This document shows, one piece after another, positions 9,812-41,051 of a stretch of DNA of 64,000 nt; within the stretch, counting starts at the first letter, position 1, and every line of letters begins with the position of its first letter. Both the position numbers and the translations under genes were made by a program. The DNA comes from Sphingomonas mucosissima (GTDB taxonomy: Bacteria; Pseudomonadota; Alphaproteobacteria; Sphingomonadales; Sphingomonadaceae), in contig NZ_NBBJ01000001.1 in NCBI RefSeq assembly GCF_002197665.1, forward strand, positions 1,054,001 through 1,118,000, given 5' to 3'. The notes below the pieces were generated by a model, which was not told the DNA's origin, searched no databases, and saw nothing but the letters and a program-made list of their open reading frames with translations.

Positions 9812-10987
9812 TTACGCCAAAATCCTGAATGCATTGCTCATGGCGTGAGCATCCTGAAGATACGCGCTGAGTACGGCCTCGTTGATCACGTCCCACCGAT
9901 AACCCCCGGCGTGCAGGTTGCCGGCGCGGCCCATCTCCTGGCGACGGCTGGGATCCCCGATCAGGATTGAGAGCGCGTCGGCATAAGCAGCCGTATCCCG
10001 TGGCTGGACGAGAAACCCGGTGCGCTCGTCATCAACCAGGCCGACTGCGCCCGAAGCTCGGGCCGCCACCACCGGTACGCCCGCAGCCATCGCTTCTAGG
10101 GTCACATTCCCGAACGTCTCGGTCACACTAGGGTTGAAGAAAACGTCCATGGAGGCAACGGAGCGTCCAAGCTCATCTCCTGCCTGAAAGCCGGCGAATG
10201 CCGCATCCGGAACCTGGGACGCAAACCAGTCCCGCGCAGGGCCTTCGCCGATCACCAGAACGCGGTGGGCAACCTTGCGACGTTTTAGCTCGGCCGCAAC
10301 CGCTGCAAAGACGTCCAGTCCCTTCTCCTTCACCAGGCGCCCGAGAAAGCCGATGGCGACCTCATGATCGGCGATCCCTAAACGTCTCCGCCATTCCAGG
10401 TCGCGTCGCGCCGGAGAGAAGCGGTCATGGTCCACACCCCGGGACCAAACGGTGGTTGGCGTTTGCACACCCCAGCTTTCCAGAATTTCGCCAAGCAACG
10501 GTCCAGGAACGAGCACGCGATCGACCCGATCATAGAAGCGCGCGAGCATGCGTTCGAAAAGCGGCTCGATGAAACCCAGGCCGTAATAGCGAGGGTAGGT
10601 TTCGAAGCGCGTGTGGAGCGAAGCGACGCGAGCGATACCATGGCGGCGAGCGTAGCTGACCGCTCGATGGCCCAGGATGTCGGGGGCCGATACGTGGATG
10701 AGGTTGGGCGCAAAGGCCGCAAGGTCTTGTCTCACCTTCGCAGGCAAGCCGCGCGCTAGACGATATTCTCCGCGTTCGCCCGGAAGTGGTATGGCGGGAA
10801 CATCAACGAGGTCACCGGTCGCGGGGAATGCCGGGTTGGCAACCGTCGGTGAATAGACCCGCACGGTCACACCGCGGCTGAGAAGGTGGCCCACCAGCAG
10901 GTTGAGCGCCTGGTTCGCGCCATCTCGCGTATAGTTATAATTGCCGCTGAACAGTGCGACACGAAGATCCGACGGATGCATGATCAT
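9812..10987 (-). CDS. Glycosyltransferase family 4 (MgtA / PimB-like)
   Basis: A 391-residue GT-B glycosyltransferase with retaining mechanism expected for GT4. The N-terminal Rossmann domain contains FSGNYNYTRDGANQ and NLIHVSAPD. The C-terminal donor-binding domain has IGFLGRLVKEKGLDVF and the E-x7-E motif ETFGNVTLE. Relatives transfer mannose or sulfoquinovose to diacylglycerol lipids, or build envelope glycans; donor and acceptor cannot be read from the sequence. The start may be the first ATG (10987) or the ATG of MHPSDL (10981); no clear Shine-Dalgarno precedes either. It probably acts at the inner face of the cytoplasmic membrane. The antiporter gene ends 51 bases upstream on the same strand. 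Confidence 0.88.
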   Translation of the reverse strand: MIMHPSDLRVALFSGNYNYTRDGANQALNLLVGHLLSRGVTVRVYSPTVANPAFPATGDLVDVPAIPLPGERGEYRLARGLPAKVRQDLAAFAPNLIHVSAPDILGHRAVSYARRHGIARVASLHTRFETYPRYYGLGFIEPLFERMLARFYDRVDRVLVPGPLLGEILESWGVQTPTTVWSRGVDHDRFSPARRDLEWRRRLGIADHEVAIGFLGRLVKEKGLDVFAAVAAELKRRKVAHRVLVIGEGPARDWFASQVPDAAFAGFQAGDELGRSVASMDVFFNPSVTETFGNVTLEAMAAGVPVVAARASGAVGLVDDERTGFLVQPRDTAAYADALSILIGDPSRRQEMGRAGNLHAGGYRWDVINEAVLSAYLQDAHAMSNAFRILA

Positions 10988-37756: not shown

Positions 37757-39067
37757 CTAAGAGGAGACCCCGCTTTCTCCCCTGCTTTCGGCAAAGCGCT
37801 CAAAATCCGTCGGCGACATTCGCACTTCATATACAGCCTTGTCGCCTTCGACCGATCGGTCGAGCACCTCGCCGTGCTGGTGCAACCAGGCCGCGCTTGC
37901 GCCATCTCCGGGCTCCAGCGTGATGGAATAGCGCTTGTGTCCTTCGGTGAGGCGGGTGGAGAGCAGACGAACGAGCGTCTCCGTTCCCTCCCCGCTCAGC
38001 GCGGATAACGCGACCACATCATCGCGGCGCGCTGCCTCACTCGTCATCTCCTCACGCGCGTCAGGATCAAGGAGATCGACCTTGTTCCACACCTCGATCT
38101 GCTGGGTGGCTTCCGACACGCCAAGCTCGGCCAGCACCGCCTCGACGTCCGCTTTCTGTGCGAGCGTATCTGGGTGCGCAACATCACGGACATGGACAAG
38201 CAGGTCCGCCGATATGACCTCCTCAAGCGTCGCCTTGAACGCGGCTACCAACTGGGTCGGTAGCTCGGAGACGAAGCCCACGGTGTCCGACAGGATCGCC
38301 TTGTCGATCCCCGGCAGGCTGATTTGCCGAAGGGTCGGGTCCAATGTCGCGAAGAGGAGGTTCTCCGCCATGACATGAGCCCCGGTCAAACGGTTGAAGA
38401 GCGTGGACTTTCCCGCGTTCGTATACCCCACCAGCGCTATCACCGGCCACGGCGCACGTTGCCGTCGCTCGCGATGGAGCCCGCGCGTACGGGTGACTTG
38501 ATCCAGTTCGCGCCGGAGTCGCGCCATCCGGTCCCGGATCAAGCGACGATCCGCCTCGATCTGGGTTTCGCCCGGACCGCCTAGAAAGCCGAAGCCGCCG
38601 CGCTGCCGCTCGAGGTGGGTCCAGCTACGGACCAACCGACCCGCCTGATAATCGAGATGCGCTAGTTCGACCTGGAGCCTGCCCTCGGCCGTGGCCGCGC
38701 GCTCACCGAAGATCTCCAGGATCAGACCCGTGCGATCGATCACCTTTGCTTCGAGCGCCGTCTCTAGATTGCGCTGCTGGATTGGCGACAGCGAGGCATC
38801 GAACACGAACAGCGAGGCTTCATCCTGCCGCCCCAACACGGCAAGCTGCTCGATCTGGCCGGAGCCGATCAGCGTAGCCGCACGCGGGGTGCGAACCCGC
38901 ACTGCCTGCCGTTCGACCACTTCAACGCCGATGGCCGCAGCGAGGCCGGCGGTTTCCTCCAGCCGTGCGTCAGCATCGCGGGAGGAACCGCCAAGATCGG
39001 GATATACTACGATCGCGCGCGCGCCACGCGCGAACTCCTCACGATCGCGATCAAAGCCGGTGGTCAA
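37757..39067 (-). CDS. hflX: GTPase HflX
   Basis: HflX is a ribosome-splitting GTPase that rescues stalled 70S or 50S particles, notably in heat or antibiotic stress. The 436 residues contain the N-terminal glycine-rich GGPGETQIE segment, a coiled coil ([15 protein letters not shown]), then the G domain with [10 protein letters not shown] (G1), DTVGF (G3, [10 protein letters not shown]) and NKVDLL (G4). It overlaps the hfq stop by 4 bases (ATGA), the same hfq-hflX order as in E. coli. Confidence 0.96.
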
Positions 39068-39555
39068 TCGTCCTCCGAACCCGCAGCATCATCCGACAGA
39101 TTCAGCGGCCGGGCCGGCTGGATCGTGGAGACCGCGTGCTTGTACACGAGCTGCGACGTGCCATCACGTTGAAGCAACATGCAAAAAAGATCAAAGGCCG
39201 CGATTTGGCCCTGAAGCATGACACCGTTCACGAGGAACATGGTGACTGAGTCTTCCGACTTGCGAACGGCGTTCAGGAAGATTTCCTGCAGCAGCGGCTG
39301 TTTACGGCTCTGTTCGCCCAGCTGATCGACAATGGCATGTACGTCGACCTGAGCCCCGGGCATGATCGTCGAGATGGCATGCTTATAGATCAGCTGGCTC
39401 TGCCCGTCCCGACGCAGGAGCACGGAGAAGTTATCAAACCAGGTTACGATCCCCTGCAGCTTCACACCTTTCACCAGGAACAGGGTAACCGGCGTCTTGG
39501 ACTTGCGGAGTGCGTTGAGGAACAGATCCTGTAAGGAGCTTTGCTTGTCGGCCAT
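39064..39555 (-). CDS. hfq: Hfq RNA chaperone with two tandem Sm domains
   Basis: Hfq pairs small RNAs with mRNA targets. Normal Hfq has one Sm domain and forms hexamers; this 163-residue product has two. Copy 1 spans about residues 7-66 and copy 2 about 88-147, with an exact 81-residue offset (Gln9/Gln90, Phe43/Phe124, YKH at 57-59/138-140). Both keep Sm1, Sm2 (YKHAIST and YKHAVST) and the proximal-face residues; the acidic partner of Gln is Asp10 in copy 1 and Glu91 in copy 2. Rim residues are LRKS in copy 1 and VRKS in copy 2. Three chains could make a pseudo-hexamer. A short acidic tail follows. It is coupled to hflX and lies downstream of ntrX. Confidence 0.96.
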
Positions 39556-39579
39556 AGGACGATGCCCTTTCGTTTTTTG

Positions 39580-39680: not shown

Positions 39681-41051
39681 TCAATCGTCCTTGGTCTCCG
39701 TAATGCCGAGCAATTTCAGCTTTCGATGAAGCGCGGAACGCTCCATCCCGATAAAGGTCGCCGTGCGCGAGATGTTGCCGGAGAACCGACGTATCTGAAC
39801 CTTGAGGTATTCGCGTTCGAACGTCTCGCGTGCTTCGCGCAGCGGCGCCCCCATGATGGCGTTCGCACCGCCGCCGCCGCCCTGATCGCCCAGCACCTCC
39901 TGCGGTAGCAGATCCACGTCGATGCGGCTGATCCGGTCACCGGGCGCAAGAATGATCGTTCGCTCCACCACGTTGCGCAGCTGGCGTACGTTTCCGGGCC
40001 AATCGAAGGATTGCAGCGCCACCATGGCATCCGTTGCCACTTCCGGCGTGCTCACCCGTCGTTCGGCGGCATAATGAGCGACGAAATGCTCCACCAACGC
40101 TGGAATGTCTTCACGTCGCTCGGACAAGGGCGGGATGGAGACAGGCACCACGTTGAGCCGGTAGTACAAATCTTCCCGGAAGCGACCCTCGGCAATCTCC
40201 TGCGTCAGGTCACGGCCGGTCGCCGAGACCACGCGCACATCCACTTTCACGATCCTGGTGCCACCCACGCGCGTGAAGCTTTGATCGGTTAGGACGCGGA
40301 GGATCCTGCCTTGCGTCGTGATCGGCATATCGGCGATCTCGTCGAGGAAGAGCGTCCCGCCATGCGCCTGCTCGAGCAGGCCGGGGCGGACCAGATCGCC
40401 ACCCTCCTCTACGCCGAAAAGCTCCTCCTCCACGCGTTCCGGCGTCATGTTCGCCGCGCTGACTACGACAAAAGGGCTGCTCGCGCGCTGGCTCCACCCA
40501 TGAAGCAGCCGCGCCGCCACTTCCTTGCCGACGCCGGCGGGGCCGACGATCATCACGCGGCTGCCCGTCGCCGCGACCCGCTTCAACGTCGCGCGCACCG
40601 TGTTGATCGCGCCCGAGCTGCCGGTCAGGTCCGTATCGCGTCCGGCAGAAACGCGCAGGCTCGCCACCTCACGCCGCAGACGCTCAGTTTCCGTGGCGCG
40701 CTCCACCATCAGCAGCAAGCGCTCGGCTTGGAACGGCTTCTCGATGAAGTCCGCCGCCCCCTGCCGTATCGCCGCAACGGCGGTGTCGAGGTTGCCGTGT
40801 CCGGAAATAACCAGCACCGCGATCGACGGGTCGCGCCGCTTAATTTCCGCCAGAAGCTCAAGCCCGTCCAGCCTCGAGCCCTGCAGCCATACATCTAGAA
40901 TGACCAGGCTGGGACGGCGTGCCGCGATTGCTTCCAGGGTAGCATCGCTGTCGGCAGCCGTGCGCGCCTCATATCCTTCGTCTTCAAGGACGCCGGATAC
41001 CAATTCGCGAATGTCGAGTTCGTCGTCGACGACAAGAATGTCTAGCGCCAT
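39681..41051 (-). CDS. ntrX: NtrX response regulator (AAA+ domain without GAFTGA)
   Basis: The response regulator paired with NtrY, controlling nitrogen, redox and envelope genes in alphaproteobacteria. The receiver domain has its phospho-acceptor Asp53 (VILDVW). The AAA+ domain has Walker A GPAGVGKE and Walker B GGTLFLDEIADMP. A Fis-type helix-turn-helix closes the protein (NISRTATFIGMERSALHRKL). Between ELFG and GLLEQA, where sigma-54 activators carry GAFTGA, the sequence is VEEGGDLVRP, shorter by four residues than in NtrC. It therefore probably does not activate sigma-54 promoters. The ntrY stop lies just upstream. 456 residues. Confidence 0.95.
   Translation of the reverse strand: MALDILVVDDELDIRELVSGVLEDEGYEARTAADSDATLEAIAARRPSLVILDVWLQGSRLDGLELLAEIKRRDPSIAVLVISGHGNLDTAVAAIRQGAADFIEKPFQAERLLLMVERATETERLRREVASLRVSAGRDTDLTGSSGAINTVRATLKRVAATGSRVMIVGPAGVGKEVAARLLHGWSQRASSPFVVVSAANMTPERVEEELFGVEEGGDLVRPGLLEQAHGGTLFLDEIADMPITTQGRILRVLTDQSFTRVGGTRIVKVDVRVVSATGRDLTQEIAEGRFREDLYYRLNVVPVSIPPLSERREDIPALVEHFVAHYAAERRVSTPEVATDAMVALQSFDWPGNVRQLRNVVERTIILAPGDRISRIDVDLLPQEVLGDQGGGGGANAIMGAPLREARETFEREYLKVQIRRFSGNISRTATFIGMERSALHRKLKLLGITETKDD

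Follow-up and report, generated by a model that had tools for sequence, protein, structure and literature searches.

The tandem hfq locus

The window, a stretch of 64,000 nucleotides from Sphingomonas mucosissima, carries on its minus strand, at 39064–39555 (stop codon at 39064–39066), the gene hfq for a double-domain RNA chaperone of 163 amino acids. Profile match and alignment place Hfq domain 1 at residues 8–70 (39346–39534, minus strand) and Hfq domain 2 at residues 89–151 (39103–39291, minus strand), separated by a linker of residues 71–88 (39292–39345, minus strand) and followed by residues 152–163 (39067–39102, minus strand), the sole acidic tail of the chain, at its C-terminus. The sequence AAGGG at 39565–39569 on the same strand, 9 nt before the ATG, is the likely ribosome-binding site. 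Both neighbouring genes are also encoded by the minus strand. Downstream lies a GTPase gene (37757–39067) that overlaps the hfq stop codon by 4 bases and that we take to be hflX, a name also annotated next to hfq in two related records; the upstream gene (39681–41051) encodes a response regulator and is presumably ntrX-like.

Two matches to PF17209 were found in the whole protein (E 2.3e-58, 194.1 bits against a cut-off of 27), with single-domain scores of 105.1 bits for 39346–39534 and 92.4 bits for 39103–39291, and the match to TIGR02383 reached 182.8 bits against a cut-off of 61.7. The double-domain model NF010691 was matched over its full length by this one open reading frame, residues 1–161 aligning with model positions 16–175 at 287.7 bits (cut-off 270). 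The reading of the gene as two complete Hfq domains in one 163-residue chain, made earlier from sequence only, is thereby confirmed by PF17209 and NF010691, with the strand being minus; the plus strand is interrupted by stops in the same frame. Its constant offset of 81 residues was likewise recovered (L8/L89, Q9/Q90), and so were the Sm2 motif YKHA and the proximal glutamine of each copy (Q9 and Q90), the uridine pocket being complete in both halves: Q9/F43/Y57/K58/H59 in domain 1 and Q90/F124/Y138/K139/H140 in domain 2. The basic rim residues that had been assigned to each copy are all present in copy 1 (R17, K18, K20, R48) and only partly in copy 2, where R98 and K99 are followed by E101 and Q129. 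On the distal face, domain 1 has K29 and K32, and domain 2 has N110 and M113.

A search of the whole genome with PF17209 returned these two matches only, and the tandem gene is thus the only hfq found. The reading frame is backed by its homologues, the best 80 of 562 being 71–96% identical, and by purifying selection. Over 4200 pairs of doubles whose dS lay at 0.2–1.2 in both halves, dN/dS averaged 0.11 in half 1 and 0.20 in half 2; the average for single-domain sequences was 0.11 (50 pairs, dS 0.2–1.2). The tandem open reading frame is a real gene and no chance pattern, and the substitution rates indicate that purifying selection acts on both of its halves.

Distribution and origin of the double form

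Tandem Hfq is a described sphingomonad trait, of which the S. mucosissima gene is one more member. All samples used to delimit the lineage were drawn within Pseudomonadota. The order sample comprised 296 genomes, 213 of them carrying family code f1, which was taken as Sphingomonadaceae from its mostly Sphingomonas-named relatives, and 83 lying outside it. Two PF17209 matches were present in 202 of the 213 f1 genomes and one in the remaining 11. Outside f1, 76 genomes had one match, six had none and one (G001) had a match plus, on another contig, a partial match to 38 of the 64 positions; none of these 83 genomes had a tandem Hfq. In f1, which has 49 genus codes in total, loci were read from each of the 42 codes with two hits, and every one showed both domains in one open reading frame; for two-hit f1 genomes beyond the loci read, tandem order is assumed. 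Among the matches listed, NF010691 was not exceeded beyond its cut-off outside f1 in either the class sample (385 genomes; five above, all f1) or the phylum sample (398 genomes; 17 above, all f1), with the limit that this cut-off misses diverged doubles, 23 of 30 f1 doubles passing and seven falling below. Ten non-f1 genomes with two matches were rechecked with PF17209, and a side-by-side pair was seen in none of them, G661 showing a single match. The suspicion that the architecture is a sphingomonad trait is therefore borne out within Pseudomonadota.

The 80 kept homologue loci were mostly titled Sphingomonas, with Sphingobium, Stakelama, Hephaestia, Rhizorhapis and two misfits among the rest. 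The misfits, L065 (titled Microvirga sp. SRT01) and L105 (titled Bacillus sp. 2B10), each contain a Sphingomonas-like double Hfq, and probably their record titles are wrong, rather than the gene having been transferred. Among the best 10 of 85 plasmid matches, one was a true double, on an 880-kb Sphingomonas parapaucimobilis record, and the other nine were single domains, each matched by both halves. Matches in six phage records were all single-domain by length. Of these records, MT835489.1 (63 kb, human faeces) has at 10089–10337 a segment similar to single-domain Hfq at 42.9% identity, and the Salmonella records of about 500 kb among the phage matches appear to be contigs of the host that were deposited as phage.

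An HflX tree, used as a proxy for the species tree and calculated by a quick method from 118 of 226 rows, united all 85 double-Hfq rows in one clade (SH-aLRT 96), so that one state change suffices. The proposed mapping of tandem PF17209 domains onto a tree gave f1 only, and one clade. In a tree of the separate domains, which has 64 columns, most forks unresolved and four of the 22 rows of genus code g12 picked among the less diverged, N-terminal and C-terminal halves were each found on one side of a branch. Several independent fusions are unsupported, given the single change on the HflX tree and the branch that splits the two kinds of halves. Both trees point to one duplication, with no visible exchange between the halves since, and the double appears to have arisen once, in an ancestor of most of the family.

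Single-domain Hfq within f1 was found at 11 loci (L019, L143–L150, L152 and L153) of seven genus codes, giving 10 distinct rows. These resemble the doubles in the core, in hflX adjoining hfq (10/10) and in an ntrX match of at least 100 bits (8/10); they differ in having one domain, with N28 and K31, and in not belonging, on the HflX tree, to the clade that unites the doubles. That position, with N28 in 10/10, rules out an origin of these genes by secondary loss, and the loci mark the state before the fusion. One of them, L148 (G053), has a long branch and was not grouped with the remaining f1 rows, a placement that is unsure. In the fetched flank of about 1.5 kb upstream of hfq, ntrX was matched with at least 100 bits in 139 of 143 doubles and in 0 of 28 order singles outside f1; the change of the gene directly upstream of hfq thus falls at roughly family level.

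Unequal halves

The two halves were compared in 143 distinct doubles outside g12, of which 73 came from the best 80 homologues and are mostly near relatives, and 70 from sampled genomes. They were set beside 61 single-domain rows (10 from f1, 28 from the order, 23 from the class); 51 of these are the best-scoring order and class matches, plus G001, and lean to the well-conserved, the f1 singles having been taken whole. Positions are numbered after an E. coli Hfq sequence that we assume as reference, and Q8, F42, Y55, K56 and H57 are taken by us to form the uridine pocket. Q8, Y55, K56 and H57 are present in both halves of 143/143 doubles, and F42 in 143 first and 141 second halves. The distal residues F25, G29, V30, L32, Q33, Q52 and T61 are also kept in both.

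The rim differs between the halves. Its charge over positions 16, 17, 19 and 47 is +4 in half 1 of 143/143 doubles and in 61/61 singles; in half 2 it averages +0.32 (range −3 to +4) and is below that of half 1 in 142/143. The S. mucosissima protein follows this rule, with +4 in half 1 and R, K, E, Q, or +1, in half 2. Taking one row per genus code, half 1 had +4 in 41/41 and half 2 was lower in 41/41 (−3 to +3), and the distal face showed K28/K31 in half 1 against N28/M31 in half 2, again in 41/41. Half 1 departs from ordinary alphaproteobacterial Hfq very little: its one fixed change is N28 to K (143/143), and leucine stands for valine at position 15 in 138/143. Half 2 is marked by M31 and Q63 (both 143/143), L41 (137/143), Q or E at position 47 (135/143), C43 (135/143), A37 (134/143) and A38 (109/143), and varies at positions 13, 16, 17 and 19; consistent differences between the halves thus lie at 28, 31, 37, 38, 41, 43, 47 and 63. 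The asymmetry is solid as a matter of sequence. That the halves have diverged was correctly seen in the sequence-only reading, and the real asymmetry (rim, Lys31, Lys28 and residue 41) is stronger than it stated; the contrast of QD with QE to which it pointed fell away, since at this position 30 of the 41 genus codes carry D in copy 2 and the other 11 carry E. Exceptions with a basic second rim were L109 (+4) and L085, L187 and L236 (+3).

Part of the loss at the second rim may be relaxed constraint, because the rate of evolution of half 2 is about double that of half 1. Taken further, this would mean that an alternating ring is formed and that all changes of half 2 come from relaxed constraint only, with function unchanged. 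The twofold dN/dS of half 2, its between-genus distances of 0.28 against 0.15 for half 1, and nine g12 genomes in which half 2 has sunk to 45–58 bits are what would be expected of such decay. However, the dN/dS of half 2 is still 0.20, several of its derived residues are fixed (M31 and Q63 in 143/143, L41 in 137/143), the gain of a fixed K28 in half 1 is not predicted by relaxation, and on the HflX tree there is no double lineage without its second half. Decay as the whole explanation is hence considered unlikely.

Linker, tail and rim

In the 143 doubles outside g12 the linker has 15–19 residues, and its median of 17 equals the tail of 11 plus the N-terminal extension of 6 of single-domain f1 Hfq. 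By these lengths, the chain resembles two entire hfq reading frames fused end to end. The linker has a mean charge of −0.36; in the 10 single-domain f1 rows the final ten residues average −4.2, and the tail of the doubles has a mean charge of −4.9. An acidic tail, with at least three D or E in the last 10 residues, closes 139 of the 143 doubles; the tails with fewer acids are those of L050 (at a contig end), L187, L204 and L221. In L187 (genus code g19) the non-acidic tail occurs together with a basic second rim (K, R, R, N), and this protein could have reverted to a chain with two rims.

The partner of the acidic tail is known from other Hfq proteins. As described for Caulobacter crescentus Hfq in PMC6561178, a subunit places the acidic tip of its tail against R18, K19 and K21 of the neighbour's rim, and K21 bonds to R49. 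In the present analysis R18, K19 and K21 were matched to E. coli positions 16, 17 and 19, and R49 to 47. According to PMC5606850, the tail contacts R16, R17, R19 and K47 in models of the E. coli protein, limiting access of RNA to the rim, and R16A, R19D and K47A weaken tail binding.

Genus code g12 departs from the common pattern. In its 13 tailed rows the half-1 rim is +4 throughout, and in the nine rows with little or no tail it ranges from 1 to 4, being at most 3 in 7/9 (Spearman −0.60, p 0.003, uncorrected for kinship). The four tail-poor g12 rows sampled group together on the HflX tree, and the link between tail and rim counts as about one event because the tail-poor rows are one clade. 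In nine g12 doubles (L167–L171 and L197–L200) the second domain scored 45–58 bits, the linkers were short and an acidic tail was almost lacking; H57 is replaced by Q in half 1 of 4/22 g12 rows. By their sequences, the nine decayed doubles are possibly an Hfq that hardly anneals RNA.

Assembly of the chain

AlphaFold modelled the S. mucosissima chain (47 rows) as two Hfq folds with a helix in the linker (pLDDT 90, pTM 0.85), pLDDT running from 90 down to 46 over five models, and a Sphingobium sequence (20 rows) reached pLDDT 55 and pTM 0.46. The best model agrees with a fixed placement of the domains relative to each other, which is not firmly predicted. Covariation between the halves gave no clear pattern in a shallow alignment (165 rows, Neff 39). 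Sequence and fold searches found no solved structure of a tandem Hfq; the nearest solved structure, first in the lists of both searches, was 6gwk, and the fold search, in which mostly residues 3–76 were tested, gave only single Hfq chains among the best 50 of each list.

From the sequence differences observed we infer a three-chain ring and an effect on RNA pairing. By its sequence, the gene goes back to a single-domain hfq that was duplicated in tandem and in frame in an ancestor from which most of the family descends. What had been the tail of half 1 became a linker that runs to half 2, and three chains would close into one ring with first and second halves alternating. The linker and the rim of half 2, as one putative pair, have both lost their charge (linker −0.36, rim near neutral), and the half-2 tail and the half-1 rim of the next chain, as the other, have both kept it (tail −4.9, rim +4). 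In a ring of alternating halves, one tail–rim pair would thus be kept and one lost, which is the pattern seen. Such a ring would offer six uridine pockets but no more than three sites of annealing at the rim, with one acidic tail guarding each of them, and on its distal face the six K31 of an ordinary ring would give way to two lysines (28 and 31) in every half 1 and zero in every half 2.

Alternatively, six chains may form stacked rings, a hexamer of first halves and a hexamer of second halves tied by the linkers, each symmetric and specialised separately. The Hfq fold and uridine pocket are kept in both halves, like halves are more alike than unlike ones, and a linker of 15–19 residues could reach by length alone. 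Yet the paired losses of tail and rim have no reason in stacked rings and are expected if the halves are neighbours in one ring, and the pTM of 0.85 of the one-chain model suggests contact between the domains, although the Sphingobium model is poor (pTM 0.46). Stacking is therefore regarded as quite improbable. It is also conceivable that half 1 alone makes a working hexamer, from which half 2 hangs outside in the manner of a tail, for instance for partner proteins, half 1 having kept nearly all features of single Hfq. Residues Y55, K56 and H57 lie at subunit borders in known Hfq rings, and they are retained in half 2 of 143/143 doubles; moreover, six extra domains would presumably crowd the rim of such a ring. 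This arrangement is very improbable.

Our preferred reading, an hfq duplicated in frame whose product forms a three-chain ring of alternating halves with six uridine pockets, three tail-guarded rim annealing sites and distal lysines in the order two-zero-two-zero-two-zero, is probably correct in these features. In published work, N28 makes a water-mediated contact with the second adenine site (PMC10628458), and K31(N) of Pseudomonas aeruginosa Hfq bonds an adenine phosphate oxygen (PMC8121710). Because 28 and 31 touch adenine sites, the six distal sites may be of two kinds. A fuller account of the alternating ring is put forward more tentatively, as something that could hold in all its parts but may well not: each of the three rim annealing sites would be blocked by one acidic tail since fusion removed every second tail–rim pair; the two kinds of adenine site (Lys28 with Lys31, Asn28 with Met31) would differ so that mRNA may sit in a fixed register; and part of g12, having lost the tail and some of the rim, would have an Hfq that binds but anneals very little.

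Because a mutation in a homohexamer reaches all six subunits, it is difficult to test the number of equal subunits or rim patches on which pairing by Hfq depends. With a tandem Hfq, one change in one gene alters every second subunit, and throughout most of a family nature appears to have made such an alteration already. Should the ring have three rims, it would allow the model of Hfq autoinhibition by tail and rim to be tested cleanly, and it would be a counterpart in bacteria of the eukaryotic step from equal to unequal Sm rings.

Comparison with known systems

The first note on a double Hfq in Novosphingobium is reportedly that of Sun et al. 2002. The mention of such a protein in the sequence-only reading agrees with PMC3474761, where two copies of hfq-like genes are listed for Novosphingobium aromaticivorans. 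For Zymomonas mobilis, Yang and others (2010, PMC2877685) described the Hfq protein ZMO0347 as one chain with two Sm-like domains, reported reduced stress tolerance of an hfq insertion mutant, noted six other Sphingomonadales species with a two-domain Hfq and posed the three-chain ring as a question; the portions of this account that were available contain neither a comparison of one half with the other nor a survey of the whole family. According to a review (PMC6563040), silencing of thnR by SuhB in Sphingopyxis granuli depends on Hfq, and a double form is assumed for this organism. Neither a study of asymmetry between two Hfq halves nor an experiment on how a tandem chain assembles was found in the open-licence papers covered, and the available portions of PMC4004385, PMC9797736, PMC7546472, PMC10725011 and PMC4337610 yielded nothing on two halves. 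Within those open-licence papers, the consistent inequality at rim and distal face, the paired loss that leaves one acidic tail, and the one old duplication behind all doubles appear to be new.

Two known systems frame the S. mucosissima protein. The NCBIfam entry NF010691 (PRK14091), 'RNA chaperone Hfq', is a double-domain model of 176 positions whose architecture is identical to that of the 163-residue chain, its entry fields carrying no statement on asymmetry. Caulobacter crescentus Hfq (6gwk) has a basic rim as in half 1 and an acidic tail as in the tandem chain; in contrast, it has one domain per chain, and in its homohexamer all six subunits have a tail and the same rim.
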